DNA of 26,419 nt from a virus. The notes under the pieces were generated by a model. That model saw only the letters and a program-made list of their open reading frames with translations. It ran no database searches and was not told the DNA's origin. This document shows positions 1,399 to 26,399 of the stretch, one piece after another. Made by a program: the position numbers and the translations under genes. The DNA lies in the IMG/VR virus record IMGVR_UViG_3300030118_004896, positions 1 to 26,419 of that record; one strand, given 5' to 3'. The number at the start of each line of letters is the position of its first letter. Position 1 is the first letter of the stretch.

Positions 1399-2430
1399 AT
1401 GTCGAATACAGTCCAGATAAAAAGACATAGTAGCAATACTAATTCATCAGCTCCAAGTAGTTTGGCGAATGGAGAATTAGCATTAAATCAAGCTAGTAAA
1501 AAATTATATGTCGGAAGGCATAACAATTCTAGTGTAGAAGTATTTCACTTACCTACACTACAAGACATTACTTATGGTAATGGTATAAGCGGAACAGTTG
1601 CTTCTGGCTCAGATGATAATTCATCAACATTAGCAGTAGATGTAACTGATTCTAATATTTTTGCAACAACAAGTGCTAAAGGTATTGCTTCTTTTTCAAG
1701 TGATAACTTTGCAGTAAGTAGTGGAGCAGTAACTATAAAAGATGGTGGAATTGTAACAGCTGAAATTGCAGCTGATGCTATAACCGCCGCTAAAATTGCT
1801 GACGATGCAATTGGCAGTGAACATATTGCCGATGATGCAGTAGTAGCAGCATCTATAGCAGATGGAGCAGTAAATACCGCTAGATTAGCGGCTGACGCTG
1901 TAACTGGAGCTAAACTAGCAGATGATGCGGTAGATAGCGAACATTTAGCTGATGGCTCTATTGATACAGCTCATATTGCAGATAATCAAGTTACTACAGC
2001 AAAATTAGCAGCAGATGCTGTTACTGGAGCACAAATAGCAGATGATGCTATAAATAGTGAACACTACACAGATGGTTCTATTGACACTGCACACATTGCT
2101 GACAATCAAGTCACAGCGGCTAAAATAGAAGATAATGTTGCCTTGCCAGGCAATTGTAGTTCTACTGGTAATTTTACAGTTGTTGGTAATTTAGTAGTTC
2201 AAGGAGATACTACTACTTTAAACACTGCTACATTAACAGTTGAAGATAAAGAGATTGTTATTGCTAGTGGAGCTGCCGATTCTGCAGCAGCAGATGGAGC
2301 TGGTATTAGAGTAGATGGAGCAAGTGCTACTATACTTTATGACCATACTGGAACGCAATGGGAATTTAACAAACCTATTGAAGCACAATCAGGTTTTAAC
2401 AACACTACATTTGACGGCGGAACATACTAA
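1399..2430 (+). CDS. Fibre protein with a twelve-fold decapeptide repeat
   Basis: 343 residues. An N-terminal module (about 1-45, NTVQIKR... GELALNQASKKLYVG) resembles the N-terminus of the next gene (NTIKIKA... RELAFDRSANKLYIR), so both probably dock to the same virion site. Residues 124-243 are twelve contiguous 10-residue units of the form (A)AD-x-A-V/I-x-x-x-x-I/L with no insertion or deletion, a pattern typical of trimeric beta or coiled fibre stalks. The C-terminal part (about 250-343) reads as a globular beta domain and ends in FNNTTFDGGTY. There are no enzyme motifs. A host-recognition or head-fibre role is inferred from architecture and neighbours. Confidence 0.75.
   Translation: MSNTVQIKRHSSNTNSSAPSSLANGELALNQASKKLYVGRHNNSSVEVFHLPTLQDITYGNGISGTVASGSDDNSSTLAVDVTDSNIFATTSAKGIASFSSDNFAVSSGAVTIKDGGIVTAEIAADAITAAKIADDAIGSEHIADDAVVAASIADGAVNTARLAADAVTGAKLADDAVDSEHLADGSIDTAHIADNQVTTAKLAADAVTGAQIADDAINSEHYTDGSIDTAHIADNQVTAAKIEDNVALPGNCSSTGNFTVVGNLVVQGDTTTLNTATLTVEDKEIVIASGAADSAAADGAGIRVDGASATILYDHTGTQWEFNKPIEAQSGFNNTTFDGGTY
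1768..2127 (+). repeat. Twelve in-frame 30-bp repeats (decapeptide array)
   Basis: Twelve units of exactly 30 bases encode ADDAVxxxxL-type decapeptides. Units 5-8 and 9-12 form a second-order 40-residue repeat (AVTGA, SEH, GSIDTAHI and NQVT recur in order), showing that duplication also happened in blocks of four. Confidence 0.85.
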
Positions 2431-2444
2431 ACTAGGAGAACATT

Positions 2445-5027: not shown

Positions 5028-5653
5028 TGGCTTTACCTTCATCTGGACAAATCTCTATGGGAGATATAAGAACTGAATTGGGAGATAGTGGCTCTATTTC
5101 TTTAAAAGAAGCATCTGACGGAACAATAGCAACAATTAATACTGGTAATGCAAGTGCAGATAGACCAGACGGTAATGCTCCACACGCTATAACAGAATTC
5201 TATAGCTATGACCACGATTTAGCAACTACTGCTTGGAGTAATGTTCCAGCAGACTTTAATCTTCACGCATTAGCAAGTAATTTTAGTGTAGATTCTGCGG
5301 TTTCTGGAGCTGAAAGCATTACTTTGACTGGTGGTAGTGGCACAACGAGCATAAATTGTCAGCAACCAAGTAATGGTAATATAGATTTAAAAGTAGCTTT
5401 TTCTTTAAGTGGCGACCCAGGTTTTGGTGGTACAAGTAATAGTGGTAGTGGTTTTCAAAACAATGCTCCAGTTATTAATACTACTACCAATGATACAATC
5501 TATTTAAGATTTAAATTGGTTGAGGTAAAGGCAAATTCTGGAAATTTAAGTGCAGAAAACAGAACAATAACTTTTACTAATAATAGTGTAAGCAATACAG
5601 ATTTACAGATTAATTGTCAGATTGCTGCTGGTGGTGGTGGAGGTGGAAGATGA
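5027..5653 (+). CDS. Virion structural protein with Gly-rich end
   Basis: 208 residues. It begins LPSSGQISMGDIRTELG, a signature seen at the start of many phage structural proteins encoded beside fibre genes, and ends in AAGGGGGGR. The middle (70-195) is Ser/Thr/Asn-rich and beta-prone. Its ATG overlaps the stop of the S74 fibre gene (TAATG), indicating translational coupling, and the next gene overlaps it by ATGA. A fibre tip, fibre adaptor or minor decoration role is likely; no enzymatic motif is visible. Confidence 0.7.
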   Translation: MALPSSGQISMGDIRTELGDSGSISLKEASDGTIATINTGNASADRPDGNAPHAITEFYSYDHDLATTAWSNVPADFNLHALASNFSVDSAVSGAESITLTGGSGTTSINCQQPSNGNIDLKVAFSLSGDPGFGGTSNSGSGFQNNAPVINTTTNDTIYLRFKLVEVKANSGNLSAENRTITFTNNSVSNTDLQINCQIAAGGGGGGR

Positions 5654-6318
5654 AGGGTTATGCATCTATGACTACATATACAATAAAAGATGATTGTATT
5701 ATAGATGAGTCTTCTGGTTGGGATGTAATGTCAACTTGGGAAACTCCTATTATGCAAAAACACGCTGATATAGTATGTGCTAATGGTGGACATATATTAG
5801 AATTTGGTTTTGGTATGGGAATTAGTGCTGGATTAATACAAAAGCACGATATTGAATCACACACGATTATAGAAATCAATGATGGAATATATGCCAATTT
5901 AGTAGAATGGGCTAAAGATAAGCCTAATGTTGTAGCAGTAAAAGGTGATTGGTATGATGATATACCTACAGATAAAAAGTATGATGGCATTTTTTATGAT
6001 GGATTTGGAGATATGTTGAATAAAAGATATTTTCCTACAAGAATTATGCAGCATTGTAAAGAAGGAACTATACTTACATGGTATAATAATCTCTTAAAAG
6101 AAGAAAGCCAATATAGTGGCGATGTAAAAACAATGAATAGATTTCATAATGGTAAAGCATTAGGAGATGTAGAGCAGTTTAAAAGTCCAGAAAGAATTAC
6201 TTACGAATCAGTAAGTTTAACAATACCAGATGAAGCTAGAGTAAAATGGTATTTAGAGGGAGATGGTAATATATACTATGCTCCACAATTATTAATAGAC
6301 AATAATGATTTAAATTAA
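5650..6318 (+). CDS. Guanidinoacetate methyltransferase-like class I SAM methyltransferase
   Basis: 222 residues when started at 5650, an ATGA overlap with the preceding stop preceded by a GGTGGAAG-type site; a longer 5614 start would run through the upstream Gly-rich coding region, and 5668 is an alternative. SAM motif I is ILEFGFGMG (49-57), the ribose-binding acidic residue is probably E75 in IIEIND, and D100 (VKGDW) and D117 (FYDGFGD) follow. The order WETPIM - GGHILEFGFGMG - HTIIEIND - VKGDW - YDGIFYD parallels animal GAMT, including the two acidic residues that hold the guanidino group (E31 in WETP, D117 in FYD). It probably N-methylates a guanidino compound or an arginine; the substrate is unknown. 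It sits between structural and lysis genes. Confidence 0.78.
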   Translation: MKGYASMTTYTIKDDCIIDESSGWDVMSTWETPIMQKHADIVCANGGHILEFGFGMGISAGLIQKHDIESHTIIEINDGIYANLVEWAKDKPNVVAVKGDWYDDIPTDKKYDGIFYDGFGDMLNKRYFPTRIMQHCKEGTILTWYNNLLKEESQYSGDVKTMNRFHNGKALGDVEQFKSPERITYESVSLTIPDEARVKWYLEGDGNIYYAPQLLIDNNDLN

Positions 6319-7213: not shown

Positions 7214-7452
7214 TGGCTATGAAAAAATCTCAAAAAAGTTTAGCTAGATGGACTAAGCAAAAATGGAGAACTAAATCAGGAAAACCTTCATCTCAAACTG
7301 GAGAAAGATATTTACCAGAAAGATTACTGAAGTCAATGACCAAATCTGAGTATGCCTACGAAACAAGAAAAAAAAGAAAGGCAACTAAAGCTGGTAAACA
7401 AAGAGCTAAATATTCAGCAAAAACCAGAAAGAAAATGAGAGGTTATTCATGA
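7213..7452 (+). CDS. Small basic protein resembling DUF5872
   Basis: 79 residues, highly basic. The segment LARWTKQKWRTKSGKPSSQ followed by TGERYLPE resembles the DUF5872-type domain seen in phages and large viruses, and the C-terminus is a Lys/Arg-rich tail (KRKATKAGKQRAKYSAKTRKK). The function is unknown; condensation or packaging of DNA, or binding to cell-wall polymers, would fit the charge. It is coupled to the genes on both sides by TAATG and ATGA overlaps. Confidence 0.65.
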   Translation: MAMKKSQKSLARWTKQKWRTKSGKPSSQTGERYLPERLLKSMTKSEYAYETRKKRKATKAGKQRAKYSAKTRKKMRGYS

Positions 7453-7607
7453 ATGTAACTAAAGATACAGCAAAAAATTTCATTCCAAAAAAATTATATG
7501 GAATGAGAAAAAGAAGTATAAAACAAAAATTGGCATCATTGCCAAAAGTGAAACTAGGAGATTATAATGAAAGACAAAATAAAAAAGGTATCAGACGCCG
7601 CAACTAA
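7449..7607 (+). CDS. Very small basic protein
   Basis: 52 residues in the gap after the DUF5872-like gene. The ATG overlaps the preceding stop (ATGA at 7449-7452) and the frame runs to a TAA at 7605-7607, overlapping the start of the next gene by 41 bases. The product is strongly basic (FIPKKLYGMRKRSIKQK near the start, KKGIRRRN at the end), like its two upstream neighbours, which favours a real third member of a cluster of small basic proteins. The overlap and the lack of a separate ribosome site keep confidence moderate. Confidence 0.5.
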   Translation: MNVTKDTAKNFIPKKLYGMRKRSIKQKLASLPKVKLGDYNERQNKKGIRRRN

Positions 7608-7749
7608 AAAGCTAGAAACGCTTGTTGACCAACATAATGAGTTGACTAAAGAAATACAATCTTTGCAAGGCAGACTATCAGAAATTCAAACTATGCTTGT
7701 AAGACAACAGGGATATATGGATTGCGTAAAAGATATTGAGGCAAAGTAG
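7567..7749 (+). CDS. Small coiled-coil protein
   Basis: 60 residues, predicted as nearly all helix with heptads (LETLVDQHNELTKEIQSLQG, LSEIQTML). Good AGGAG 8 bases before the ATG. There is no signal peptide and no membrane segment. It lies immediately before the endolysin; it could be a small regulatory or assembly protein, and the function is not recognisable. Confidence 0.6.
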   Translation: MKDKIKKVSDAATKKLETLVDQHNELTKEIQSLQGRLSEIQTMLVRQQGYMDCVKDIEAK

Positions 7750-7769
7750 TTTTATGTTTAACTTGGTAA

Positions 7770-8309
7770 ATGAAGCAATTTTTTATTGTTTTGTTTGCTA
7801 TTTTTTTATCAGGAGAAAGTATGCAAAAAGATGTTGATGCAATAATAGATAAAGTTATTCACAACGAGGGCGGATATAATAATGACGCTCTAGATATGGG
7901 AGGAGAAACTAAATACGGTATTACAAAAAGGTTTTACCCTCATATTAATATAGAATATTTAACTTTAGAAAAAGCAAAACAAATCTATTATGAAGATTAT
8001 TGGCTACCGGCTAAAGTTGACAAACTTCCTTATAACTTAAGATATGCATATTTTGATTGTGTAATCAACACAGGTCAGAAAAGGTCTGTGAAAATTCTCC
8101 AAGAAGCCATAAATTCACAAAGCGTTGTGCAGTTAAAAGTTGACGGAGTTATTGGTCCGAAAACATTAAAAGCGGCTAAAAGCTTAAGTCCAAAAAGATT
8201 TGCTGCATATAGAGTAGATTTTTATAGTAAATTAGTAGCACACAAACCTGAACAAAAAAGATTCTATTATGGTTGGTGGCTTAGAACACTGGAAACAATA
8301 AATGGCTGA
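7770..8309 (+). CDS. Endolysin, GH108 lysozyme with peptidoglycan-binding domain
   Basis: 179 residues. Residues 18-105 match the GH108 muramidase family: VIHNEGGYNND with the catalytic Glu (E33), then DMGGETKYGITKRFYP, and the conserved YYEDYWLPAKVDKLP and YFDCVINTGQ blocks. The C-terminal part (110-170, LKVDGVIGPKTLKAAK) is a PG_binding_3-type domain. Residues 1-17 (MKQFFIVLFAIFLSGES) look like an export signal, so this form could be secreted by the host Sec system. However, the ATG at 7770 has no clear ribosome site, whereas the internal ATG at 7821 (M18) follows AGGAG by 6 bases and would give a typical cytosolic GH108 of 162 residues. Confidence 0.9.
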   Translation: MKQFFIVLFAIFLSGESMQKDVDAIIDKVIHNEGGYNNDALDMGGETKYGITKRFYPHINIEYLTLEKAKQIYYEDYWLPAKVDKLPYNLRYAYFDCVINTGQKRSVKILQEAINSQSVVQLKVDGVIGPKTLKAAKSLSPKRFAAYRVDFYSKLVAHKPEQKRFYYGWWLRTLETING

Positions 8310-9273
8310 TTATATAACAACTAGAGATTTATACGACATATATCCTAACATTGATGAATATGACTCAAAAGCACAAATTCATGGTTGGGAAGTAGATTCA
8401 GGGTCAAGATATAAAGCAGAAAATAGTGGTTTAGTTACTGCTTTATTTGCTAATGGAAAAAATTTAGGCAGTGCTCAAGCTAATAGAGCGGCAGTAGATG
8501 CAAATAATGAATGGTATTATGATAGCTCAATTGACACTTGTTATTATTTTGACAGCTCAAACAATCCACAAACTTTATTAATGGAGGCTGGAGAGGATAA
8601 CGCTACATTCAAATCAAGAATGATTTCCAACGCTAGTGCATATTTTACATCTAAGGTAGATGCTACATTACCCAAAGAAATGTTTTTATTAAAAGATGGT
8701 AGCTACGATTACTTTATAAAAAGAACAGTTGGGCTGTTAGCGGTTGCTTTTATGATTAAAGCGTATGAACCTGATAGCGAGATAGCAATAGCTTTAGATG
8801 AAGAAGCAGAAAGAAATATTGAAGATTTAAATACCGGTAGAGTAAAATTAGGTTTTCAGTCATCCGGAGATATGTCGCAAGGCAATGTAGCAAAAGTTTC
8901 TGTAAGTGGAGCTTTAAATATTGTAGATACAAGAGGAGAATACACTGGCACATACGATAGAATTAAAGTTATTATTACAACTGGCGGAGCTATAGGAACT
9001 GCTAAGTTTTCTGTATTTGCTAAAGATGCTGAGGGATTAAAAAATCAACAAGTTATAACAGATGAGATTGTTAATGGAGATTATCAAAAATGCGTTAGCG
9101 GATTACAAATTAGATTTCAAGGTTCTGCAGATAATTCAGCTGCCACTCAAAATGATGAATGGGAGATAGAAGTTATGGGTAAACACGAACATACAGATAA
9201 TGCTGGTGTTAGAAGTGTTAAGTTGACTAGAACAAATAACAAGAGAGTTAGTTATAGCCTACCCTTCAAATAA
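8302..9273 (+). CDS. Structural protein, possibly head-tail connector
   Basis: 323 residues, overlapping the endolysin end by 8 bases. The N-terminus (DYITTRDLYDIYPNIDEYD) has the look of head-tail adaptor proteins, the middle (about 140-180) is helical, and residues 190-323 form a beta-rich, jelly-roll-like domain (GALNIVDTRGEYTGTYDRIKV ... WEIEVMGKHE). It is followed by two tail-completion-like genes and the tail tube gene, the usual place for connector proteins. The name is inferred from position and style only. Confidence 0.55.
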   Translation: MADYITTRDLYDIYPNIDEYDSKAQIHGWEVDSGSRYKAENSGLVTALFANGKNLGSAQANRAAVDANNEWYYDSSIDTCYYFDSSNNPQTLLMEAGEDNATFKSRMISNASAYFTSKVDATLPKEMFLLKDGSYDYFIKRTVGLLAVAFMIKAYEPDSEIAIALDEEAERNIEDLNTGRVKLGFQSSGDMSQGNVAKVSVSGALNIVDTRGEYTGTYDRIKVIITTGGAIGTAKFSVFAKDAEGLKNQQVITDEIVNGDYQKCVSGLQIRFQGSADNSAATQNDEWEIEVMGKHEHTDNAGVRSVKLTRTNNKRVSYSLPFK

Positions 9274-9716
9274 TGCCTACTTCATTTTCAACAATCTATA
9301 AAGACATCATAAACACTTTCGCTGAAAGTTTAAGAGGAGAGTTCGGAGGAGCGGCTAAAGTTTATATAGCGGAAGAATTTCAAAGGCAAGGTAATCAATC
9401 AATTCGATTAGAAAATATAGGTCAATCTTTTAATGAAATTAATGACGATAGATTTTTAAATAGCTATGAGCTTGAAATCAAGTTTTATAGTATTGTTAAT
9501 ATTAGAACCGATATAACATACAAAGATTTCTTTAGAACAGTTCATAGAATAGAACAATTTCTATTAGCCTCTCAAGAAACTTTTGAAGTCGGTAAAGAAT
9601 TATTAAATTTTAAGATAAGTTCTATTGCAATTAATGATTTAGTAGATGACGAAGTAAATGTAAATGGATTACAAGCCGCAACATTTAACTTACAATTCTC
9701 TCAATTAAAAGGATAA
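9273..9716 (+). CDS. Tail-completion/neck-like protein, paralogue 1
   Basis: 147 residues. It shares with the next gene an ordered set of motifs: F-LRGEFGGAAKVYIAEEF (about 18-36), a beta segment with LEIKFYSIVNI, RIEQFLL, and DLVDDEVN near the end. The size and the place just before the tail tube gene fit tail-terminator or tail-completion proteins, which cap the tail tube and join it to the head. Its ATG overlaps the preceding stop. Confidence 0.6.
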   Translation: MPTSFSTIYKDIINTFAESLRGEFGGAAKVYIAEEFQRQGNQSIRLENIGQSFNEINDDRFLNSYELEIKFYSIVNIRTDITYKDFFRTVHRIEQFLLASQETFEVGKELLNFKISSIAINDLVDDEVNVNGLQAATFNLQFSQLKG

Positions 9717-9717
9717 T

Positions 9718-10236: not shown

Positions 10237-10245
10237 GGAAAAACT

Positions 10246-17126: not shown

Positions 17127-17135
17127 GGACATATT

Positions 17136-17810: not shown

Positions 17811-18068
17811 TTAAAAAGGAAGGTCATCTTCTTCGATTTTTTGACCTGGAGCTGCAGAATACTTTTTACTTTCAGCTGATGGTGTAAAAGTAAGAGATAA
17901 CATAGGGTCGCCTTTCTTAGTAAGCTTCTTCCAAAGACTTACCTTATAAAGCTTACCTTCAAGCTTAGCTTCTCCAGTAAAGTGCGGTTTATTATCTCCT
18001 TCTGTTTTGAAAGAGTTTTTAAATATAAAACCTCTTTGTTCATCCGGTTCAAATTTCTTTTTAGCCAT
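17811..18068 (-). CDS. Small SSB-like protein with acidic C-terminal tip
   Basis: 85 residues. The end EEDDLPF has the form of the acidic tip of bacterial single-stranded DNA-binding proteins (DDDIPF), which docks repair and replication enzymes. The body is one small beta-rich domain with FTGEAKLEGKLYKVSLWKKL and DPMLSLTFTP, in style like short OB-type or DUF736-like phage proteins. It is the last gene of the leftward unit, downstream of nuclease and replication genes, which fits a DNA-metabolism role. TAGGAG lies 6 bases before the ATG; a run of eight C lies just above that site. Confidence 0.6.
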   Translation of the reverse strand: MAKKKFEPDEQRGFIFKNSFKTEGDNKPHFTGEAKLEGKLYKVSLWKKLTKKGDPMLSLTFTPSAESKKYSAAPGQKIEEDDLPF

Positions 18069-18196
18069 TTTTTCTCCTAGTTATAGAGGGGGGGGATAGT
18101 AGCCAACCGATATATTTGCAAATTATATTATCAGGGGTAAGATACTCCTTTCTTAATTTAATTTGTTTATATAAAATCCCCCGCTCTCATTTATAA
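18069..18196. other. AT-rich gap with homopolymeric G8 tract
   Basis: 128 bases between two leftward genes with no convincing ORF. It carries G8 at 18088-18095 (C8 on the coding strand, directly above the ribosome site of the SSB-like gene), AGAAAGGAG without a following start codon, and TATAAT-like sequence at about 18125-18131 on the minus strand without a good -35. It may hold a promoter for the SSB-like gene. Confidence 0.4.
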
Positions 18197-19429: not shown

Positions 19430-19488
19430 TTATTTTCCTTTCGGGAGGCAAAGGGTAACCGACGGCCAAGATTTTGCCTTGCATATAT

Positions 19489-19887
19489 CTATTTAGATAG
19501 CTGTTCTTGAAGTCCAATAATTTCATTCTCTTTATCTTTAACACATTCTTTTAGTTCTTGTATCTCGGAAAGTAAACTCAACCAATCTACAAATTCCATT
19601 GTCGAATAGAATTTAGCATTCATTTTAAATATATTAATAGGAATTTTTGAACCACAATCAGAATAAATTTGCTCCCACCACTTCGGAATCATAAGCTTTT
19701 TTTGGTCTTTTATCTCGAAATGATATTGAAAGGCAACTGAATCTGGGTCGATGTCAATTATGTCGCCTTTTATGGATAAACCGCCGGAAAGTGGCGTTCT
19801 CCTACAATTAGTGTTAAGATGCTTGTTTATAAGTTTGGCTACTTCTCTTTCTGCTCTTTTGCCTTTTTGTTGACTATTTATGGGCAT
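19489..19887 (-). CDS. PD-(D/E)XK nuclease, Holliday-junction-resolvase-like
   Basis: 132 residues. The start QKGKRAEREVAKLINKHL is the helix that carries the first acidic residue in this superfamily (E13 or E15), followed by RRTPLSGGLSIKGDI with D42 and the FEIK motif (E58-x-K60) needed for metal binding. The C-terminus (100-132) is a coiled coil. GGAGGAG precedes the ATG and the upstream gene overlaps it by 10 bases. It likely resolves or trims branched DNA during phage replication; a restriction-type nuclease is less likely without a methylase. Confidence 0.78.
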   Translation of the reverse strand: MPINSQQKGKRAEREVAKLINKHLNTNCRRTPLSGGLSIKGDIIDIDPDSVAFQYHFEIKDQKKLMIPKWWEQIYSDCGSKIPINIFKMNAKFYSTMEFVDWLSLLSEIQELKECVKDKENEIIGLQEQLSK

Positions 19888-20156
19888 AGCTCCTCCTTTT
19901 CAAAGTCTGTATGTTCTTTACAATCTCCACAATTACCAAAATGTTCTCCATCAAACTCATGGATATTGCCAAGTGGTTTGGCAGTGCAACATGTAGAATA
20001 TAACTCTCTATCCTCATGCCAACCGATTGACTTATTAACTTCATCCATGTCATTATAAATCTTAACATATTTACTATCTTTAAATATAATGTTATTAGGA
20101 TTTAAGTGTTTTTCGTGTTTGATTGACCATGCTTTATCTATTATGTCTTTTGTCAT
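19878..20156 (-). CDS. Small Cys-rich, probably zinc-binding protein
   Basis: 92 residues. The C-terminal half has C56-C57 (STCCTAKPLG) and C76-x2-C79 (GNCGDCKEH), with His residues between, a spacing that suits one zinc ion. The N-terminal half is helical. No family is recognised, but short zinc proteins of this look are frequent in phage replication regions. Its AAGGA ribosome site is separated from the ATG by a run of seven C, so slippage in that run would change the SD-to-start spacing. Confidence 0.6.
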   Translation of the reverse strand: MTKDIIDKAWSIKHEKHLNPNNIIFKDSKYVKIYNDMDEVNKSIGWHEDRELYSTCCTAKPLGNIHEFDGEHFGNCGDCKEHTDFEKEELCP

Positions 20157-20157
20157 A

Positions 20158-20164
20158 GGGGGGG
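20158..20164. repeat. G7 tract between ribosome site and start codon
   Basis: Seven G on the plus strand, read as seven C between AAGGA and the ATG of the leftward Cys-rich gene. Runs of this length are rare in this AT-rich sequence; two other G8 runs lie at 18088-18095 and 25323-25330. Confidence 0.7.
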
Positions 20165-20169
20165 TTTCC

Positions 20170-20898
20170 TTATATTGTTGGCTTCATTTGTTCTCCGCAA
20201 CTACACAACTTATACAAGTCTTTAAATTCAGATTGTATAGAGTCTTTGCAGATATCACATTTATAAATGTAAACTTTCTGTTCCTCAACTTCATTTCCTT
20301 CACTTGCCTTTCTTAGCCAATTGCGAAAGAATGCATTATAATTCTTATATCTCTTACCGCTAGATGCTAACCAATCTGCCATTCTATCAAATTCTAACTT
20401 TACATTAGCGTGAGGAAAGTCGTTTTGATACCTGACGAGGTTCTGCTGTATCCCTTGCAATTGCTCTTTTTGGGTAAGATTCTTTTCTTTCTTATCTTTC
20501 TTTTTCCTTATTTGATTGTTTTCGCGAGGCATTCGTTCCGCTTCGGCTACGGACTCGGCTTCGTGCCTCACATACTGGTAAGTGTCGTAGTTATTAATAC
20601 TTAGATGTGTCCATCTTTTTTCGTTTTTTAATACAATCATATTATCTTTTTCTAGCTTTTTTAAGAATCTTTTGACTTTAGATGATGACCACATTAGCTC
20701 TAACCCTAGTTTTTTAAGAGAAGATACAACTTCCCCTCTCCTAACTAATACAACTTCAGCTATCTTTTCGTTTGCAAGAGTTTTATAATCTTGATGGTTT
20801 GCCTTACAAAGTAATAGAATCCAAGCTTTAAAATAATCATCTCTTTGAAAAATCCAATGATGTTGTATTTCTCTATGTAGTTTAATCCAACCGCTCAT
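20170..20898 (-). CDS. Winged-helix replication initiator / helicase-loader-like protein
   Basis: 242 residues. The start SGWIKLHREIQHHWIF is typical of phage replication-initiation proteins, and residues 43-105 form a winged helix-turn-helix (RRGEVVSSLKKLG; SSSKVKRFLKKLEKDNMI). A charged linker (110-145) follows, then a helical FDRMADWLASSG...YKNYNAFFRNWLRKA block (170-198) like the C-terminal part of lambda O or helicase-loader proteins, and a short zinc knuckle (C214-x2-C217, C232-x-C234). It should bind origin DNA and recruit the host or phage helicase. The linker DNA is unusually GC-rich. GGAGA precedes the ATG. Confidence 0.75.
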   Translation of the reverse strand: MSGWIKLHREIQHHWIFQRDDYFKAWILLLCKANHQDYKTLANEKIAEVVLVRRGEVVSSLKKLGLELMWSSSKVKRFLKKLEKDNMIVLKNEKRWTHLSINNYDTYQYVRHEAESVAEAERMPRENNQIRKKKDKKEKNLTQKEQLQGIQQNLVRYQNDFPHANVKLEFDRMADWLASSGKRYKNYNAFFRNWLRKASEGNEVEEQKVYIYKCDICKDSIQSEFKDLYKLCSCGEQMKPTI

Positions 20899-20913
20899 TG
20901 CATCTCTCCAAAT

Positions 20914-20925
20914 ATCCCGCGGGAT
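20914..20925. promoter_or_regulatory. 12-bp GC-rich palindrome above the replication initiator
   Basis: ATCCCGCGGGAT, perfectly self-complementary, lies 16 bases upstream of the replication gene start and next to a TGCCTTGC octamer (20932-20939). It may be an operator for a dimeric regulator or a short RNA stem near the ribosome site. Confidence 0.45.
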
Positions 20926-20940
20926 TTTGTTTGCCTTGCA

Positions 20941-21264
20941 TTATGCATTAGCTATATCTGTTGGATTCATAAAGACTCCACTATTATCATCGATTTCTTT
21001 TTTAAATCTTGAAATCCATTTTAATCCAATGTTATCTATTTGTTCATCTGCGGTTGTCATTAAGAAACATAAAAAGAACATGATGTTAGAGAAAACTACC
21101 TTCGCGTCAGCCGCTTTGCCTTTCCACTCTTTATCTTTTTCTAAATCTCCAAGTAAAAGCCAATAGCTAACACAGCAATTTTTAAAATACTCATACCTTT
21201 CTTTTTCAGACTTCTGCCAAAATTTATCCGGTTCAGCCCAGTCAACTTCCAATTTTTCTATCAT
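20941..21264 (-). CDS. Hypothetical helical protein
   Basis: 107 residues, mostly helix. Notable are W-rich N-terminal segments (VDWAEPDKFWQKSEKERYEYF), a Cys pair (NCCVSYW), and a hydrophobic stretch at about 57-69 (FSNIMFFLCFLMTTA) that is short for a membrane segment. GAGGG precedes the ATG. It lies between the replication initiator and a possible annealing protein, which suggests a DNA-metabolism accessory role; no family is recognised. Confidence 0.6.
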   Translation of the reverse strand: MIEKLEVDWAEPDKFWQKSEKERYEYFKNCCVSYWLLLGDLEKDKEWKGKAADAKVVFSNIMFFLCFLMTTADEQIDNIGLKWISRFKKEIDDNSGVFMNPTDIANA

Positions 21265-21319
21265 ATATCCCTCGCATCTGATTTTTATAATCAGTAATTT
21301 TATTTATCTTGAACTTCAT
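21242..21319 (-). CDS. Possible 25-residue mini-gene or leader peptide
   Basis: A strong AAAGGAG 7 bases before an ATG at 21317-21319 starts a 25-codon frame (KFKINKITDYKNQMRG ... DRKIGS) that ends inside the next gene, overlapping its start by 23 bases. The ribosome site is better than that of many confirmed neighbours, so it may be translated, perhaps to couple translation of the downstream gene. The peptide itself shows no domain. Confidence 0.4.
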   Translation of the reverse strand: MKFKINKITDYKNQMRGIYDRKIGS

Positions 21320-21335
21320 TGTTCGCTCCTTTCAC

Positions 21336-21362
21336 AAATGCCTCTCTTTATGGGAGGCATTT
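21336..21362 (-). terminator. Hairpin after the possible annealing-protein gene
   Basis: 9-bp perfect stem AAATGCCTC / GAGGCATTT with a 9-base loop, overlapping the gene stop at 21361. Only TTT follows on the minus strand, so it could be a weak terminator, a processing site or a protein-binding site. Confidence 0.45.
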
Positions 21363-21762
21363 ATATATCAAAGTCAGCGTTATCTTGGATTCCTCCGGTA
21401 ATCTCCATTTCTACATCTGAGTAGAATCCATTATTACCTCCATAAAAACCAAGCAACTTCATACACACTCTAGCCTTGCCTCTCTTTTCGGCCATTGCCC
21501 ATTTATAATCTATGTAGCAATTAGAACTATTAGCCTCTCCAAAACTCCAACATGTGCGGTTATCCATTGTTCCAATTATAAGCAAAGCTACTTCTCCATC
21601 TTGGTTGGAATGATTTCGTGTAGGTGTTTCAAATTGTATATCATGATGGTCAATCATAATCTCGATTGCCTCGAAAGATATAATATCTTTTCCGGTTTGC
21701 TTGTGTTTCCAAAAGTGTGATGTATCTAATCCATACTTTTGTATAATCTCTTGTTTATTCAT
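21361..21762 (-). CDS. Hypothetical protein, possible single-strand annealing or recombination role
   Basis: 133 residues when started at the ATG at 21762, which follows AGAGGG by 6 bases; a GTG at 21780 would add six residues. Residues 60-110 read VALLIIGTMDNRTCWSFGEANSSNC then AMAEKRGKARVCMKLLGFYG. The AEKRGKxRVxxKLLG helix recalls the AETRAxGRAL helix of Rad52/ERF-like annealing proteins, and the SDVE segment that follows is also seen in such phage proteins. The resemblance is weak and the function remains a guess. It lies in the replication block and ends in a hairpin. Confidence 0.6.
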   Translation of the reverse strand: MNKQEIIQKYGLDTSHFWKHKQTGKDIISFEAIEIMIDHHDIQFETPTRNHSNQDGEVALLIIGTMDNRTCWSFGEANSSNCYIDYKWAMAEKRGKARVCMKLLGFYGGNNGFYSDVEMEITGGIQDNADFDI

Positions 21763-21797
21763 TTTTGCCCTCTTTCCCACTTTTTTGTGGATTTATC

Positions 21798-21824
21798 AAA
21801 AAAACGAGGCCTTAGAATAGGCCT
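21798..21824 (-). terminator. Rho-independent terminator after the RHH gene
   Basis: On the minus strand, AGGCCT-ATTCTA-AGGCCT folds into a 6-bp stem and is followed by CG and a run of seven T. It ends the long chain of leftward early genes. Confidence 0.65.
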
Positions 21825-21871
21825 ACATCGCGTTAAAATAAATTTTTCGATATAACCTATGCCTCGTTTTT
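21800..21871. repeat. 11-bp inverted repeat with nested hairpins
   Basis: AAAAACGAGGC (21800-21810) pairs with GCCTCGTTTTT (21861-21871) across 50 bases. The left arm overlaps the AGGCCT stem (21807-21824), so the long stem and the short terminator stem exclude each other. A small ATCG/CGAT pairing lies inside. Confidence 0.6.
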
Positions 21872-21872
21872 C

Positions 21873-22043
21873 TTACTTTTTACTGATTAAAACATAACCT
21901 TTGTCTGCAAGATATTCGTTTAAAACCTTGCGAACAAGTGAGGTTATAGTTCTGTATTGCTTTCCACTTTCTAATCTCAGTGAATCGTATGTATTCTTGT
22001 CGATTTGAATACCGACCTTTTTCTTTTGTTCAACTACTTTCAT
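21873..22043 (-). CDS. Ribbon-helix-helix DNA-binding protein
   Basis: 56 residues. The layout is that of CopG/Arc/MetJ-type repressors: a basic start, a beta strand KVGIQID, then helix KNTYDSLRLESGKQ, turn YRTITSL, helix VRKVLNEYLADKG. Such proteins bind DNA as dimers of dimers on palindromic sites. TAGGAG precedes the ATG by 9 bases. It is the last gene before a terminator in the leftward unit and is the only recognisable small transcription-factor-like protein in the window apart from an HTH protein at 22748-23032. It could regulate early or late transcription; a site is not proven. Confidence 0.75.
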   Translation of the reverse strand: MKVVEQKKKVGIQIDKNTYDSLRLESGKQYRTITSLVRKVLNEYLADKGYVLISKK

Positions 22044-22136
22044 CTTGATTTTCTCCTATAATTAAATTTTTGCCTTTCAAACATAATATGATAACATAGA
22101 GGGTATGAGGTTTGGTAAGATTGTAAGAAAGGCAAA

Positions 22137-22316
22137 TTAATATCTTTTTTCTAAACTTTCTTTGATAACTTGCAAATTACCGATTATGCTGTTAATCTTA
22201 ATTCGATTAACATTTTGTATGTAAGATGGTAATTCTTTTAACCCAACTATCAAGAGTTCGCACTCCTCTTTATCACTCAACTTTAAGACCATTGGTTTTT
22301 TTACTATTTTTTCCAT
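22137..22316 (-). CDS. Small hypothetical protein
   Basis: 59 residues (start EKIVKKPMVLKLSDKEECE, end VIKESLEKRY), mostly helix. The ATG lies inside the last codons of the preceding gene (13-base overlap) with no ribosome site of its own, so it is probably translated by coupling. The acidic/basic helical pattern is protein-like and codon use matches its neighbours. No family is recognised. Confidence 0.55.
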   Translation of the reverse strand: MEKIVKKPMVLKLSDKEECELLIVGLKELPSYIQNVNRIKINSIIGNLQVIKESLEKRY

Positions 22317-22678
22317 AGGTTTTTTATAAAATTAAGTATATTATTCATAACTTTGCAAGGCATTTTTAGCACAGGCTGCCGCTTCTCAGGTTTTACCCCT
22401 CCCATTATCCAATCTTTATGCCAATGATTATCTAAAGCTAAGTCAATTATTTGTTGCCTTGTGAACATTTTCCCACTTATGTAGTCATAAAATCTCTTGC
22501 GAGTATTTGAATTGTGCAACCCAATATAATAAAACTCAGCTATTCTATGAACTCTCAAAAACAAAATCATATTGTTTAGTTCTTTGTGATTGACTTTTTT
22601 CATACAGACTTTCCTTCCTTGCCTTTCATCTAATGCATCGCCTAATTGATTATATAGCCAGTTATAAGGATGTTTCAT
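22304..22678 (-). CDS. Hypothetical protein of the leftward early unit
   Basis: 124 residues, basic (MKHPYNWLYNQLGDALDERQG; C-terminal KNLWKK), with aromatic-rich helices (HRIAEFYYIGLHN) and FTRQQIIDLALDNHWH. The ATG overlaps a small upstream membrane-protein frame. No family or motif is recognised; a nucleic-acid-binding role would suit the charge. Confidence 0.62.
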   Translation of the reverse strand: MKHPYNWLYNQLGDALDERQGRKVCMKKVNHKELNNMILFLRVHRIAEFYYIGLHNSNTRKRFYDYISGKMFTRQQIIDLALDNHWHKDWIMGGVKPEKRQPVLKMPCKVMNNILNFIKNLWKK

Positions 22679-22751
22679 TAAACAATTCCCTAAAACCAGC
22701 TATAATAATCAATACAAAGCTCACAATTATATACCACTCATCAAATGTCAT
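22662..22751 (-). CDS. 29-residue single-span membrane protein
   Basis: The ATG overlaps the upstream stop (ATGA at 22748-22751) and the frame runs over the start of the next gene. The product has a clear transmembrane helix (WYIIVSFVLIIIAGF) flanked by acidic and basic residues. The tight overlaps at both ends fill what would otherwise be the only gap in this part of the operon. Phage early mini-membrane proteins are common, often acting on host membrane functions. Confidence 0.5.
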   Translation of the reverse strand: MTFDEWYIIVSFVLIIIAGFRELFNETSL

Positions 22752-23032
22752 GCTGGATATGAATTGAGGTAATATCTTGTGAACTTTACTCCATGTTCCG
22801 AAACTTTATCATCTGAGTCGATGTTAAAGCCTTGCAACCTTAAGTTAAAAATTATAGCGGATAATCTTGTAGCCCGATATAACTTTATTGCCTCCCAAGT
22901 CGTGATACTGCGATGAGTCTTAAGATGTTCTATGACTTTCTGAGTCTTAGTATTACCCATCCTTTTTCTCCCAGTAATCAAGGTCTTGGTATTGATTGCT
23001 CTTTTTCTACCAGTAGCCAATGTCTTAGCCAT
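22748..23032 (-). CDS. Small helix-turn-helix protein
   Basis: 94 residues when started at 23032, where GGAGGAG lies 5 bases upstream; an upstream start at 23119 would run through the preceding gene. Residues 29-85 (TQKVIEHLKTHRSITTWEAI; LSAIIFNLRLQGFNIDSD; KFTRYYL) match the short helix-turn-helix domain found in many phage and bacterial proteins, with a beta wing at the end. Residues 4-30 hold two copies of a 13-residue basic motif (TGRKRxxNTKT). It should bind DNA; its targets are unknown. Confidence 0.68.
   Translation of the reverse strand: MAKTLATGRKRAINTKTLITGRKRMGNTKTQKVIEHLKTHRSITTWEAIKLYRATRLSAIIFNLRLQGFNIDSDDKVSEHGVKFTRYYLNSYPA
22944..23021. repeat. Two tandem 39-bp repeats in the HTH gene
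   Basis: Copies at 22944-22982 and 22983-23021 are similar but not identical and encode a doubled 13-residue basic arm (TGRKR...NTKT). The in-frame duplication lengthens the Lys/Arg-rich N-terminus. Confidence 0.65.
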
Positions 23033-23252
23033 TGTTCTCCTCCTTTGCGATTTGCCTTTCAAGCCAACTATCATCCTCTTTTGCGTGAGTCCAACTTTCA
23101 TCCCATACAACTGAAACATAATATGTTAGCTCGTTTTTAATCTCGTGAGGTTTTTTATCCTTTGTAATAAGCTCTACAAACTTGTCTAGCTTATTATTCC
23201 TCGCGGTTCTTTTCGCATGTTCCATTTCATATTTATTATACCTTTTCGCCAT
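23025..23252 (-). CDS. Small hypothetical charged protein
   Basis: 75 residues (start AKRYNKYEMEHAKRTARNNK, end WLERQIAKEENNG), helical and very charged, with two Trp in VVWDESWTHA. AGGAGG precedes the ATG by 8 bases, and it overlaps genes on both sides by a few bases. No family is recognised. Confidence 0.6.
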   Translation of the reverse strand: MAKRYNKYEMEHAKRTARNNKLDKFVELITKDKKPHEIKNELTYYVSVVWDESWTHAKEDDSWLERQIAKEENNG

Positions 23253-23400
23253 TGTGAACCTCCTTAACTATGTCATCGACGATTTCTCTAAACTCATCTT
23301 GTGAGTATCGTTTTATACTAATCTCTTTTATAAGTTCAATTGCCTTATTCCATTTGGCATTCAACTTAAATATCTCTTGAGCTTGTCCAAGTAAACTCAT
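23236..23400 (-). CDS. Small hypothetical protein (54 residues)
   Basis: The frame begins with an ATG overlapping the upstream stop (ATGA at 23397-23400) and ends 17 bases inside the next gene, closing what would be a 145-base gap in the operon. The product is helical and amphipathic (SLLGQAQEIFKLNAKWNKAI; REIVDDIVKEVH). Its last codons carry the AGGAGG ribosome site of the next gene, a normal arrangement for coupled genes. Confidence 0.6.
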   Translation of the reverse strand: MSLLGQAQEIFKLNAKWNKAIELIKEISIKRYSQDEFREIVDDIVKEVHNGEKV

Positions 23401-23714
23401 TGCGAATCCCTTGCATAATCTCTTTGCTTGTCATTCCAGCCATCAACTATATTTTCGTTGTCAGACTCAATGCCTTTCAAAGCATGATTGAACTGCTCTT
23501 GAATATCCTCTATATCAGCAACCGGAGCTTGTTCCTCATCGTCTAGTCTTGGGATAGTTATAATTATAACATCCTCCCCAACTATACTATGAGCTTGATA
23601 GCCATCACTATCCATGATTGCCTTACATGCTCTTTCGCACAGCTCTATTTTGTTTTTAGAAATAGCCTCCTCCATTTGCCTATCATAAACATTACTTGGT
23701 TTTATCTTGAACAT
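23397..23714 (-). CDS. Hypothetical acidic protein
   Basis: 105 residues from the ATG at 23714, which has AGGAGG 6 bases before it; a GTG at 23720 would leave only 2 bases to the site. The N-terminal half is helical with Cys (ELCERACKAIMD) and a short beta segment (GEDVIIITIP); the C-terminal half is strongly acidic (DDEEQAPVADIEDIQEQF). Acidic early phage proteins sometimes mimic DNA, but nothing specific supports that here. Confidence 0.6.
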   Translation of the reverse strand: MFKIKPSNVYDRQMEEAISKNKIELCERACKAIMDSDGYQAHSIVGEDVIIITIPRLDDEEQAPVADIEDIQEQFNHALKGIESDNENIVDGWNDKQRDYARDSQ

Positions 23715-24012
23715 CCACAACCTCCTTTAAAGCCTCTTTCACTGCCTCAGCTTTTTGCCCTTTAGTTTGCAAGGCAACTTGATTGTTGATAATTTCTTCA
23801 AGTTTGGAAATTGACTCCACACACTTTTTGGAATCTCGCATAATTATCACAACCATATACATGCCTCTCAAGACTCCAGCCATATAAGTATTCATGGCAT
23901 CTAGAGGATTGACAGATACTTTGCCATCTACAAAGCCTAGCATCTTGTCATCAGCCTCTTTGACTTTCTCAAGAGCCTCGTTTAATGATACTCCATTTAC
24001 ATCTATGAACAT
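23692..24012 (-). CDS. Hypothetical helical protein
   Basis: 106 residues (start FIDVNGVSLNEALEKVKEAD), with a hydrophobic helix at about 45-59 (VLRGMYMVVIIMRDS) and a charged C-terminal helix rich in Lys and Glu. The hydrophobic stretch is too short and too interrupted for a confident membrane span. GGGAGGGAG lies directly before the ATG. No family is recognised. Confidence 0.6.
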   Translation of the reverse strand: MFIDVNGVSLNEALEKVKEADDKMLGFVDGKVSVNPLDAMNTYMAGVLRGMYMVVIIMRDSKKCVESISKLEEIINNQVALQTKGQKAEAVKEALKEVVDVQDKTK

Positions 24013-24305
24013 ACTCCCTCCCTTAAATAAAGTTTGTTCTGAAACTTTATTTTGTTTATTGTTTCGTAATTGACTATTCGATAGTCATCTTTTTGCATAT
24101 CAAACACCAGAATGTAGGGTTTATTCCCTTGCATTGCGGTAGATGGTTTGTCCGGATTTATAGCTCTAGACTTTACATCTAAGCGGCAAACCATATCCCT
24201 TGCCTCTCCATTTTTCTTAATAAAAGAAACTGAGAATATCTTACCATTAGTATCTAATAATATTTTCTTTAAAGCTTTCGTGTCTAAGTTATTTATTGTA
24301 ATCAT
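24003..24305 (-). CDS. SH3-beta-barrel-fold protein of phage type
   Basis: 100 residues. The sequence NGKIFSVSFIKKNGEARDMVCRL, then KPYILVFDMQKDDYRIVNYETI, fits the small SH3-like barrel proteins common in phage early regions (conserved order F-V-F-I-K-x-[ND]G, R-x-M-x-C/A-R-L, V-x-D-x-x-K-x-x-Y-R). The biochemical role of that family is not known. AAGGA precedes the ATG and it overlaps both neighbours by a few bases. Confidence 0.72.
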   Translation of the reverse strand: MITINNLDTKALKKILLDTNGKIFSVSFIKKNGEARDMVCRLDVKSRAINPDKPSTAMQGNKPYILVFDMQKDDYRIVNYETINKIKFQNKLYLREGVCS

Positions 24306-24537
24306 AGTTCTTATCCTTGCTAATCATTAATATTCTTTGTTGTATAACAACATTGTCATTGCAAAACTTACAGCATCTGCCATCGTTTATTGGCCTTGCA
24401 TTATGACCCTCATCCCACCAAATGATAGTTCCATCCATGTGAATACCTATCATTTCCCTTGCAATAGGTTCTTGGCAAATACTACATGGTTTTCCATCTT
24501 TGTTTGGAACGACTTTACCCATAGGAATAGCACTCAT
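24289..24537 (-). CDS. Small zinc-binding protein (HNA-GRCC-CN type)
   Basis: 82 residues with C18-x2-C21 (CSICQEPI), then WDEGHNARPINDGRCCKFCN, giving H45 and C55/C56-x2-C59. This arrangement is a known small phage zinc-ribbon layout, distantly like HNH-type metal knuckles but without a nuclease His-Asn-His set. The ATG overlaps the upstream stop (ATGA). A nucleic-acid-binding role is plausible; the function is unproven. Confidence 0.65.
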   Translation of the reverse strand: MSAIPMGKVVPNKDGKPCSICQEPIAREMIGIHMDGTIIWWDEGHNARPINDGRCCKFCNDNVVIQQRILMISKDKNYDYNK

Positions 24538-24749
24538 TTCTCCCCCTTGTAATCTAAATCATACATAACCACATCTAAACAACCATTAGCAAAAGCATTG
24601 TTATTTTTTTTAACAAATGCCTCCCATTCTTTGTTAGACATATCCTCATCCACATGTTCTTTATCATAATATGAATGTAATACACATGCCTTATCTAGCA
24701 AGGTATGTAATTGTTTGGTTTCTTTTTCAGTTAAATATCCTACCCTCAT
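24534..24749 (-). CDS. Hypothetical acidic protein
   Basis: 71 residues from the ATG at 24749, which overlaps the upstream stop (ATGA) and has GGAGGAG 6 bases before it; the ATG at 24764 lies upstream of that site and is unlikely. The protein is helical and acidic (TEKETKQLHTLLDKACVLHSY; DVVMYDLDYKGEK). No family is recognised. Confidence 0.62.
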   Translation of the reverse strand: MRVGYLTEKETKQLHTLLDKACVLHSYYDKEHVDEDMSNKEWEAFVKKNNNAFANGCLDVVMYDLDYKGEK

Positions 24750-24964
24750 TTCTTTCTCCTCCATACTTTGACATCATCTTTATTCCAAGCGGTATGCCAA
24801 CCCAAGTCATCTAATTGTCCAATGGTTTTAGCTTTAGGTTCGCCATACCAAAAGTTCTCTTGCCTTGCTTTTTTTCTTAGCAAGTAAACTTCTTTATTAT
24901 ATACTTGTTCATTCTCACTTGTGATAATAAGCTTGATGCCTTTTGGTTTTTTACCCCACTTCAT
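24746..24964 (-). CDS. Small basic hypothetical protein
   Basis: 72 residues, basic, with beta-type start (KKPKGIKLIITSENEQVYNKE) and W-rich end (LGWHTAWNKDDVKVWRRKK). The ATG overlaps the upstream stop by 4 bases. One TGCCTTGC octamer (24861-24868) is inside it. No family is recognised. Confidence 0.6.
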   Translation of the reverse strand: MKWGKKPKGIKLIITSENEQVYNKEVYLLRKKARQENFWYGEPKAKTIGQLDDLGWHTAWNKDDVKVWRRKK

Positions 24965-25203
24965 GATTCCTCCCTTTCAAATGTGAAAGGAGTATCATCT
25001 CTTAGATATCCCTCTTTATAGGTCTTTTTAACTTGATTAAGTTTGTTCTCGATAGCTCCAAGAGCTTTGTTAGCATTATCTATATCAAATGAATAATTGC
25101 TTTTGTTAGAAAGGTTTTCTATTAACCTTAATTGATGTAGAACTCTATTAGTTCTCTTTTCCATTAATTGTAGCCATTTGTTTATTCTAATTTCTCTACT
25201 CAT
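24961..25203 (-). CDS. First gene of the leftward early unit, coiled-coil protein
   Basis: 80 residues, helical (INKWLQLMEKRTNRVLHQLR; NKALGAIENKLNQVKKTY). AGAGGAG lies 7 bases before the ATG, and a possible leftward promoter and an inverted-repeat leader lie in the 130 bases above it, so it heads the early transcript. No family is recognised. Confidence 0.62.
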   Translation of the reverse strand: MSREIRINKWLQLMEKRTNRVLHQLRLIENLSNKSNYSFDIDNANKALGAIENKLNQVKKTYKEGYLRDDTPFTFEREES

Positions 25204-25222
25204 ATTATCTCCTCTTGGAACA

Positions 25223-25274
25223 CCGGATAGTCATGAGCTGAGTCAATAGGACGCAATAAAGGAGAGCTATCCGG
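25223..25274 (-). repeat. Inverted repeat in the early-operon leader
   Basis: CCGGATAG (25223-25230) and CTATCCGG (25267-25274), 8 bp each, are 36 bases apart, between the promoter candidate and the first leftward gene. In RNA it would form a stem ending about 20 bases before the start codon; in DNA it could be a split operator. Confidence 0.5.
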
Positions 25275-25299
25275 CATTCCTGAATTAGTTTTTAAAGTT

Positions 25300-25308
25300 A
25301 TCATACCA
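25300..25308 (-). promoter_or_regulatory. Extended -10 promoter candidate for the early unit
   Basis: Minus strand reads TGGTATGAT, a TGn extended -10 element; no recognisable -35 is present, and the C8 run (25323-25330) lies about 18 bases upstream instead. The position, about 100 bases before the first early gene, is suitable. Confidence 0.35.
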
Positions 25309-25504
25309 TGAATTTGGGGATAGGGGGGGGTATAAGTCAAGTAAAATCTATAACTTTTTTAATTATTTATACCGATAATAGTATGTTTTATCTCTATAAA
25401 TCACTAAAAAAAAATATAGGATATCAATATAACCAAAAGCAAAAACAAATCGATTTCGCGGACTTTTGGTAGCAAAAAAAAGCTTTTCTTTCCCTTGCTT
25501 TTTG

Positions 25505-25541
25505 TTTGTCGTCATAGAATCAAAAAATCCTCGACGACAAA
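25505..25541. repeat. 9-bp inverted repeat in the control region
   Basis: TTTGTCGTC (25505-25513) and GACGACAAA (25533-25541) flank a 19-base loop. No T tract follows on either strand, so a DNA-structure or protein-binding role is more likely than termination. Confidence 0.45.
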
Positions 25542-25571
25542 AAAGGCTCACAAATTTTTTTTTTGAAAAAA

Positions 25572-25589
25572 ACCGACTGAGTAGTCGGT
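25572..25589 (-). repeat. 18-bp palindrome, copy 1 (also a leftward hairpin-T terminator)
   Basis: ACCGACTGAGTAGTCGGT has 7-bp arms and a 4-base centre. On the minus strand the hairpin is followed by a run of T, so this copy could also end leftward transcripts. The identical 18-mer recurs at 25670-25687. Confidence 0.65.
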
Positions 25590-25639
25590 CGCTCCTCTAA
25601 AAAACTCTATAAGTTAAGATATTGCTAGGGTTGCGGAAA

Positions 25640-25648
25640 TGTGGATAA
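25640..25648. promoter_or_regulatory. Consensus DnaA box
   Basis: TGTGGATAA, the exact complement of the TTATCCACA consensus bound by bacterial DnaA, midway between the two 18-bp palindromes. A single 9-mer can occur by chance; its setting makes it worth noting. Confidence 0.45.
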
Positions 25649-25669
25649 CTTTTGGTCAACTTTTCGAAA

Positions 25670-25687
25670 ACCGACTGAGTAGTCGGT
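25670..25687. repeat. 18-bp palindrome, copy 2
   Basis: Identical to copy 1, 98 bases away, here with one more pairing base on each side and without a good T tract. The surrounding TTTCGAAAACC...CGGTTCAATTTTG recurs in degenerate form at 25717-25744 (TTTCGAAACC...CGGTTTAATTTTG), giving a partial third unit. The element resembles operators of TetR-type dimers in symmetry. Confidence 0.6.
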
Positions 25688-25742
25688 TCAATTTTGATGC
25701 AAAAATGAAAGCGAAATTTCGAAACCTCAGCCGGTTTAATTT

Positions 25743-25755
25743 TGCCTTGCCTTGC
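25743..25755. repeat. Two overlapping copies of the dispersed TGCCTTGC octamer
   Basis: TGCCTTGCCTTGC holds the octamer at 25743 and 25748. Other copies, either strand, begin at 2139, 7665, 8877, 12200, 13418, 13539, 14061, 14097, 15113, 15269, 17144, 18226, 18959, 19475, 20932, 22355, 23769, 24861 and 26123. Confidence 0.8.
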
Positions 25756-25971
25756 AATTTTGAAATCGCATTCTGAATCCAAAATCAAGCAATAAAAGCG
25801 ATTAAATCTTTACGCATGTTATCTATTGCCTTTCCTCAGTAAATCGATTTTAATGCCATCCTAGAGCTGAGAATATGCATTGCGGCTACTAGCTAGAATC
25901 AATTTTAAGGCATCAAATCAAGCTCTCATGGAGTTTTTGTTTAAGATTGGATAAAAGGTATGAAAAGACAC

Positions 25972-26004
25972 AAAAAAGGCCGGAAATCAACGAAATCCGG
26001 CCTT
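25972..26004 (-). terminator. Strong leftward terminator
   Basis: 9-bp stem AAGGCCGGA / TCCGGCCTT (25976-25984, 25996-26004) with an 11-base loop, followed on the minus strand by a T run. It ends the gene at 26031-26399 and shields the control region from its transcription. Confidence 0.75.
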
Positions 26005-26030
26005 ATTTGCGGTTTTAAGAGGAGAAAATG

Positions 26031-26399
26031 CTATCTCAACTTAAATTCCTCCTCTAGAGCATCCCATTCGGCATCCTCTTTTGCCCATTTATCCTCAAGC
26101 GAATCAACATCTTGATTGGATTGCAAGGCATTTGAGAAACTGAAAACGCGATGCCTTAAAGGGCAATGATTTCTATTGGAGAACCAATTGCCCTTTTCCC
26201 ATGAACCAAAAGATTCATTCATGATTTCATATTCTCCTTTTGAATCAAGGAAAATTAGTTTTGAATGGCCTATCTTTTTCTCAATCAGTTTTCTGATTGC
26301 CTTGTTGCCTAGCTTGAATTTGAAAGGCAAGGCTCTTAGATATTCGCGATTGAATAATCTAGTATCTGAAACCAATTTTGAAAATGGCATGTCAATCAT
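26031..26399 (-). CDS. Hypothetical protein at the right edge, possibly partial
   Basis: 122 residues from an ATG at 26399, but there is no clear ribosome site and the frame stays open to the window edge, so the true start may lie outside. The protein is basic in the first half (LPFKFKLGNKAIRKLIEKKI) and acidic at the end (WAKEDAEWDALEEEF). It contains GHSKLIFLDSKGEYEIM and one GCAAGGCA octamer (26123-26130), and is followed by a strong terminator. No family is recognised. Confidence 0.6.
   Translation of the reverse strand: MIDMPFSKLVSDTRLFNREYLRALPFKFKLGNKAIRKLIEKKIGHSKLIFLDSKGEYEIMNESFGSWEKGNWFSNRNHCPLRHRVFSFSNALQSNQDVDSLEDKWAKEDAEWDALEEEFKLR

Follow-up and report, generated by a model that had tools for sequence, protein, structure and literature searches.

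The octamer GCAAGGCA, together with its reverse complement TGCCTTGC, is a lineage-specific recognition signal of the density type that is spread over the whole genome in a small group of uncultured marine phages. Occurring about once per kb, and being present or absent among syntenic relatives, it makes up a natural experiment telling us that a component of the infection reads the word. For every reading considered here the step from the signal to a reader is one that we infer. The density belongs to the lineage and is switched on or off between near relatives, and some protein that is met during infection is therefore the reader. Our preference, which is tentative, is for a Chi-like nuclease/recombination enzyme of the host.

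The stretch of DNA that was analysed, here called the window, is 26,419 nucleotides long, has a GC content of 34.3%, and is part of a phage genome record of 34,599 b (G000), which is probably complete because its first 77 bases recur at the right end. The first-pass annotation had reported 21 exact copies between 2139 and 26123, ten as GCAAGGCA and eleven as TGCCTTGC, and all of them were recovered; another 11 lie beyond the window, which gives 32 copies in G000, or about 0.9 per kb. Their spacing is irregular (the gaps have a CV of 1.1 in G000), and the pattern read backwards, taken as a control, has 0 copies there. For the window an order-2 Markov model expects 0.69 copies, and for all of G000 it expects 1.0, so that the proposed enrichment of tens of fold is real and amounts to about 30-fold. 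When all octamers are ranked, GCAAGGCA/TGCCTTGC is by far the most over-represented, and the only near rivals are shifted forms of GCAAGGCA and the two words GAAAGGCA and GCAAGGGA, each one base away from it. A higher-order background had been named as a check on this, and models of order 4-5 do predict 5.5-20 copies, but only because they hold the octamer's own sub-words; the observation stands, and the valid controls are a codon shuffle and the relatives. Chance or base composition as the source of the octamer is ruled out by the order-2 model and the codon shuffle. The copies in the window are as follows.

2139 to 2146, minus strand: octamer copy (GCAAGGCA on the minus strand), antisense GCC-TTG
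7665 to 7672, plus strand: octamer copy in gene 7567-7749, as TTG-CAA-GGC-A
8877 to 8884, plus strand: octamer copy, kept in the relative G016
12200 to 12207, plus strand: octamer copy, exact match
13418 to 13425, plus strand: octamer copy in the tape-measure gene
13539 to 13546, minus strand: octamer copy, Ala-Leu-Gln as GCC-TTG-CAA
14061 to 14068, minus strand: octamer copy, Ala-Leu-Gln
14097 to 14104, minus strand: octamer copy, Ala-Leu-Gln
15113 to 15120, plus strand: octamer copy, kept in G021
15269 to 15276, plus strand: octamer copy, kept in G016 and G021
17144 to 17151, plus strand: octamer copy, kept in L003
18226 to 18233, minus strand: octamer copy, kept in L003 and G016
18959 to 18966, minus strand: octamer copy, kept in L003, G016, G020 and G021
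19475 to 19482, minus strand: octamer copy, intergenic, kept in L003 despite differing adjacent bases
20932 to 20939, minus strand: octamer copy, intergenic
22355 to 22362, plus strand: octamer copy, exact match
23769 to 23776, plus strand: octamer copy, Ala-Leu-Gln of a minus-strand gene
24861 to 24868, minus strand: octamer copy, exact match
25743 to 25750, minus strand: octamer copy, non-coding, overlaps the next
25748 to 25755, minus strand: octamer copy, non-coding, overlaps the previous
26123 to 26130, plus strand: octamer copy, kept in G020

As had been described, copies are found in genes on both strands and also between genes: 25 of the 32 in G000 lie within curated genes and 7 outside, and the non-coding DNA, which is 8% of the genome, carries 22% of the copies (p=0.012). 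Within genes the word is spelled xxG-CAA-GGC-A (Gln-Gly), xGC-AAG-GCA (Lys-Ala) or, antisense, GCC-TTG-Cxx (Ala-Leu), and the three sites in the tape-measure gene where Ala-Leu-Gln was said to be written GCC-TTG-CAA are real. A genome-wide synonymous codon shuffle gave a mean of 1.3 in-gene copies and never more than 6 in 1000 rounds, where 26 are observed (one copy falls in two overlapping genes and is counted twice here). It is therefore the DNA, rather than the encoded peptide, that is under selection, as the tape-measure sites had led the annotation to suggest. It could be argued that codon usage, repeated peptides or a mutational bias produced the word as a side effect, since most of the in-gene copies fall on the recurring peptides Gln-Gly and Ala-Leu-Gln, but this is effectively refuted by the shuffle expectation, by the spacers, which are dense as well, and by the syntenic relatives, where the permissive positions are left unrealised. 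Of the positions that are permissive for the octamer at the protein level, 26 of 57 carry it in G000 and 24 of 38 in the octamer-rich relative G016, compared with 0 of 23 and 0 of 30 in the octamer-free G017 and G002.

The same count settles the matter of orientation. When G000 and G016 are taken together, 36 of 69 permissive positions are realised in sense and 14 of 26 in antisense (p=1), and the function is therefore independent of strand relative to transcription; the strand neutrality noted earlier thus holds once protein permissiveness is taken into account. A signal at the RNA level, with the word selected in mRNA for an RNA-binding protein or nuclease of phage or host, could draw on the fact that 17 of the 25 in-gene copies have GCAAGGCA on the coding strand, but this bias is gone among the permissive positions (52% realised in sense, 54% in antisense) and 7 of 32 copies are non-coding in a genome with 8% such DNA, which makes this reading very improbable. 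The scarcity of copies in the first 7.6 kb, with the capsid and fibre genes, was also seen, but we reject this desert as biology, since the proteins of those genes and of their neighbours offer few codon positions where the word could be written.

The relatives were found with one gene of the window as anchor.

18197 to 19429, minus strand: calcineurin-like exonuclease with an N-terminal zinc ribbon (PHROG 284, E 1e-55)

The octamer-rich phages form three lineages that are about 70% identical in DNA: G000 with L003 (88% identical to G000), G016 with 31 octamers in 37.1 kb, and the G020 group, in which G020, G021, G022 and L360 were counted as one, the contigs being 99.6-100% identical where they overlap. 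The octamer density over the three lineages is 835-1345 per Mb. The syntenic relatives G002 (40 kb), G017 (36 kb), G018 and G019 have 0 copies and G023-G028 have 0 to 2. The divergence of the octamer-free syntenic relatives is similar to that between the octamer-rich lineages, and no substitute word of like strength was found in them. Conservation at aligned sites in relatives, on which the earlier proposal had been made to depend, is clear: L003 keeps 4 of 4 sites and G016 (73% identical) keeps 7 of 11, against 11% (0.109) for composition-matched octamers (p=4e-5). In a codon alignment of genes spanning 24 kb, G000 and G016 have 6 sites in common and 12 that are private to each, and the density is maintained while single sites come and go. 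In a small tree of replication genes a single split, modestly supported (78), separates octamer-rich from octamer-free phages, but in a tree of structural genes with G003 included, G016 groups with the octamer-free pair, and because of this conflict gain and loss of the octamer are indistinguishable.

The shape of the motif differs from what was first proposed. The four octamer-rich records that were compared have 86 copies, and five octamer-poor ones have 1; over the 86 the flanks are near background, with a slight preference for T to the left and for A to the right, and the core is exactly 8 bp and asymmetric, the reverse complement of GCAAGGCA being a different word. An extension of most copies toward TTGCAAGGCAA is not what we see, as only 4 of 21 have it, and with such flanks and such a core the interrupted palindrome TTGC-N3-GCAA falls too. 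Two variants accompany the octamer.

7376 to 26324 of the window: one-base variants GAAAGGCA and GCAAGGGA, enriched in G000

They number 20 and 12 in the genome of G000, respectively, above the codon-shuffle expectation, and the G020 group has many copies of GCAAGGGA where G016 has none, which suggests a looser or shifting motif, as if there were dialects.

A host enzyme for DNA-end processing and recombination, of the RecBCD/AddAB type, may read GCAAGGCA like Chi. Dense copies in both orientations would then let the phage survive attack on its DNA ends, octamer-aided recombination would yield concatemers that can be packaged, a phage lacking any recombinase or inhibitor of nucleases that can be recognised would rely on the host enzyme, and the octamer-free relatives would infect hosts whose enzyme reads another word. 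No recombinase, polymerase, integrase or Gam-like protein was seen among the scanned proteins, many of which have no assigned function. That the octamer is exact and asymmetric, that its dispersion is strand-neutral and that the scanned proteins include no recognisable recombinase, polymerase or inhibitor would tentatively favour such an enzyme, and so might the on/off pattern between near relatives, which is what a change of host could leave behind. Chi (GCTGGTGG in E. coli) is likewise an exact, asymmetric, dispersed octamer in phages that apparently depend on the host for recombination, and the 8-bp core found here is just such a short word; Chi is over-represented in enterobacterial phages without recombinases, at an observed/expected ratio of about 2.5, with 0.2 per kb in recombinase-less phages (PMC3784561). 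On the other side, the enrichment here (about 30-fold) exceeds the published one for Chi in phages (about 2.5-fold) by an order of magnitude, the density is 0.9 per kb compared with 0.2 per kb in recombinase-less phages, none of 1,246 searched genomes has a clear octamer excess, and GAAAGGCA and GCAAGGGA are enriched too, with the latter absent from G016.

The reader could instead be encoded by the phage, for which two DNA-binding proteins and some small proteins come into consideration.

21873 to 22043, minus strand: ribbon-helix-helix (RHH, Arc-like) protein, weak candidate reader (PHROG Arc-like, E 0.005)
22748 to 23119, minus strand: winged-helix HTH_39 protein, weak candidate reader (Pfam HTH_39, E 7e-13)

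Such a protein, be it the RHH, the HTH_39 or a small one, would coat, silence, condense or mark the genome at about 30 dispersed sites, which we regard as somewhat doubtful. The RHH protein is 76-80% identical among octamer-rich phages and 37-48% identical to that of octamer-free ones, a scan of viral contigs based on it gave octamer-rich phages only, and GAAAGGCA/AAAAGGCA lies directly upstream of its start in three of three octamer-rich lineages and in none of the octamer-free phages, with AAAGGCA near the start in the octamer-rich ones. The small genes at 23397-23720 and 24289-24537 are also present in octamer-rich phages and missing from the octamer-free ones compared, the second of them coding for a zinc-finger protein; their proteins show no likeness to known DNA-binding regulators. 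It also speaks for a phage reader that none of the 80 loci listed in a two-octamer scan is an unrelated viral contig of similar dispersed density. Mild enrichment was seen, among the matches listed, in L241 and L301 only, the latter with 7 octamers in 12.5 kb; L241 (IMGVR_UViG_3300018083_001080) is viral, has 51% GC, and holds 8 dispersed GCAAGGCA in 13.9 kb where about 1 is expected. But the predicted contact residues of both proteins are essentially the same in octamer-free G017 and G002: the predicted DNA-contacting strand of the RHH, K-V-G-[I/V]-Q-I, is shared by most octamer-free relatives, and the recognition-helix region of HTH_39 is nearly the same in G017. The RHH, put forward earlier as one possible reader, thus has its own version in the octamer-rich clade, but a contact strand that is common property. 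The octamer-free relatives also have no substitute word, unlike repressor systems with one version per phage, and the copies show no association with promoters, no regular spacing and no strand preference. That a phage protein would read the octamer to protect, organise or identify its own DNA, with the word written into genes at the expense of codon and amino-acid choice, is to us an unlikely form of genome-wide marking.

Upstream of the RHH gene, in the spacer at 22044-22136 of the window (minus strand), there is a long imperfect hairpin, the stem of which is kept with compensatory changes in differing sequence in G000, G016, G020, G017, G002 and G018. It has no Rfam match and is possibly a structured RNA leader or an operator. 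Autoregulation of the RHH gene through the octamer was rejected, as the hairpin structure is also present in octamer-free phages and its stem is not the octamer.

The endolysin, with GH108 and PG_binding_3 domains, indicates a bacterial host, and small proteins of the phage are similar to proteins of SAR11, SAR116 and Roseobacter phages. Aligning the terminase to genome contigs in search of prophages gave no match at the sensitivity used, and no relevant paper with the octamer as a whole word was found in the literature. We counted the octamer in 1,246 genomes (369 Gamma-, 385 Alpha-, 345 Bacteroidia and 147 of one alphaproteobacterial order of small genomes, the assignment of which we infer from genome size), and the maximum was about 150 per Mb, under a fifth of the phage density. 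In small pieces that were checked, the densest of these genomes have 1.1-2.5 times the octamers expected from composition, which is compatible with Chi because Chi is in excess by no more than about 2.3-fold in E. coli (PMC3784561). A lake Euryarchaeote that came up in a three-octamer scan, among the matches listed, was rejected as host, since its copies form clustered tandem and inverted arrays in GC-rich DNA and the endolysin is bacterial. This MAG, VGTL01 (G029), is GC-rich and has about 1,230 GCAAGGCA copies, largely in tandem or inverted clusters (loci L113, L123, L152, L153, L181, L184 and L188), which are a separate repeat phenomenon.

These counts also bear on whether the octamer is a DNA-uptake sequence of a naturally competent host. 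Uptake sequences (USS/DUS) have a core of 9-12 bp with extended flanks, whereas the octamer has a core of 8 bp and flanks near background. A host should hold hundreds of copies per Mb, and with the maximum of about 150 per Mb an uptake host in the sampled groups is disfavoured, although the true host may be missing from the sample. The uptake sequences in Pasteurellaceae phages reach several hundred per Mb, occur in both orientations and are patchy among phages, and both the density and the dispersion here match USS-rich Pasteurellaceae phages (Hin-USS about 750 per Mb) (PMC6776037). The two orientations, the presence in genes and spacers and the sharp presence or absence between related phages, which fits a change of host, would all agree with it, but accumulation has been reported for prophages, and in this phage, which is not recognisably temperate, no integrase was seen. 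We consider accumulation of the kind seen in Pasteurellaceae prophages quite improbable.

Two other systems are similar only in part. The stoperators of cluster A mycobacteriophages are also asymmetric and dispersed, with 20-30 copies per genome, but they are 13-14 bp, follow the direction of transcription and sit mostly in short intergenic spaces (PMC6550527, PMC9283540), while the octamer is 8 bp, strand-neutral (36 of 69 sense, 14 of 26 antisense), mostly inside genes (25 of 32) and without a counterpart in relatives; stoperators are bound by an immunity repressor of the phage, and no clear repressor or integrase was found here, the RHH and HTH proteins being the only candidates. HIP1 (GCGATCGC) of cyanobacteria is a highly iterated octamer across the genome as well, but it is palindromic and tied to orphan methyltransferases (PMC4390886), and GCAAGGCA is not palindromic, with TTGCAAGGCAA in only 4 of 21 copies.

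If a host enzyme does read the octamer like Chi, the word would be the recombination signal of a marine bacterium and a handle for host prediction, Chi being known for few species (PMC8022716), and selection on such signals would be far stronger than reported for enterobacterial phages. If the reader is encoded by the phage, it would be a new genome-marking system.

Two other genes deserve mention. Beyond the window, after a gap of 10 bases given as N (26420-26429 of G000), a 584-aa protein at 26734-28488 looks amidoligase-like by eye (no Pfam match) and has six octamers inside; it adjoins a glutamine-amidotransferase-like ORF and is very divergent even among close relatives. Within the window, a 234-aa protein at 5614-6318, next to the fibre genes, has no Pfam or PHROG match, is methyltransferase-like by eye and absent from all relatives compared, and looks like a recent acquisition.
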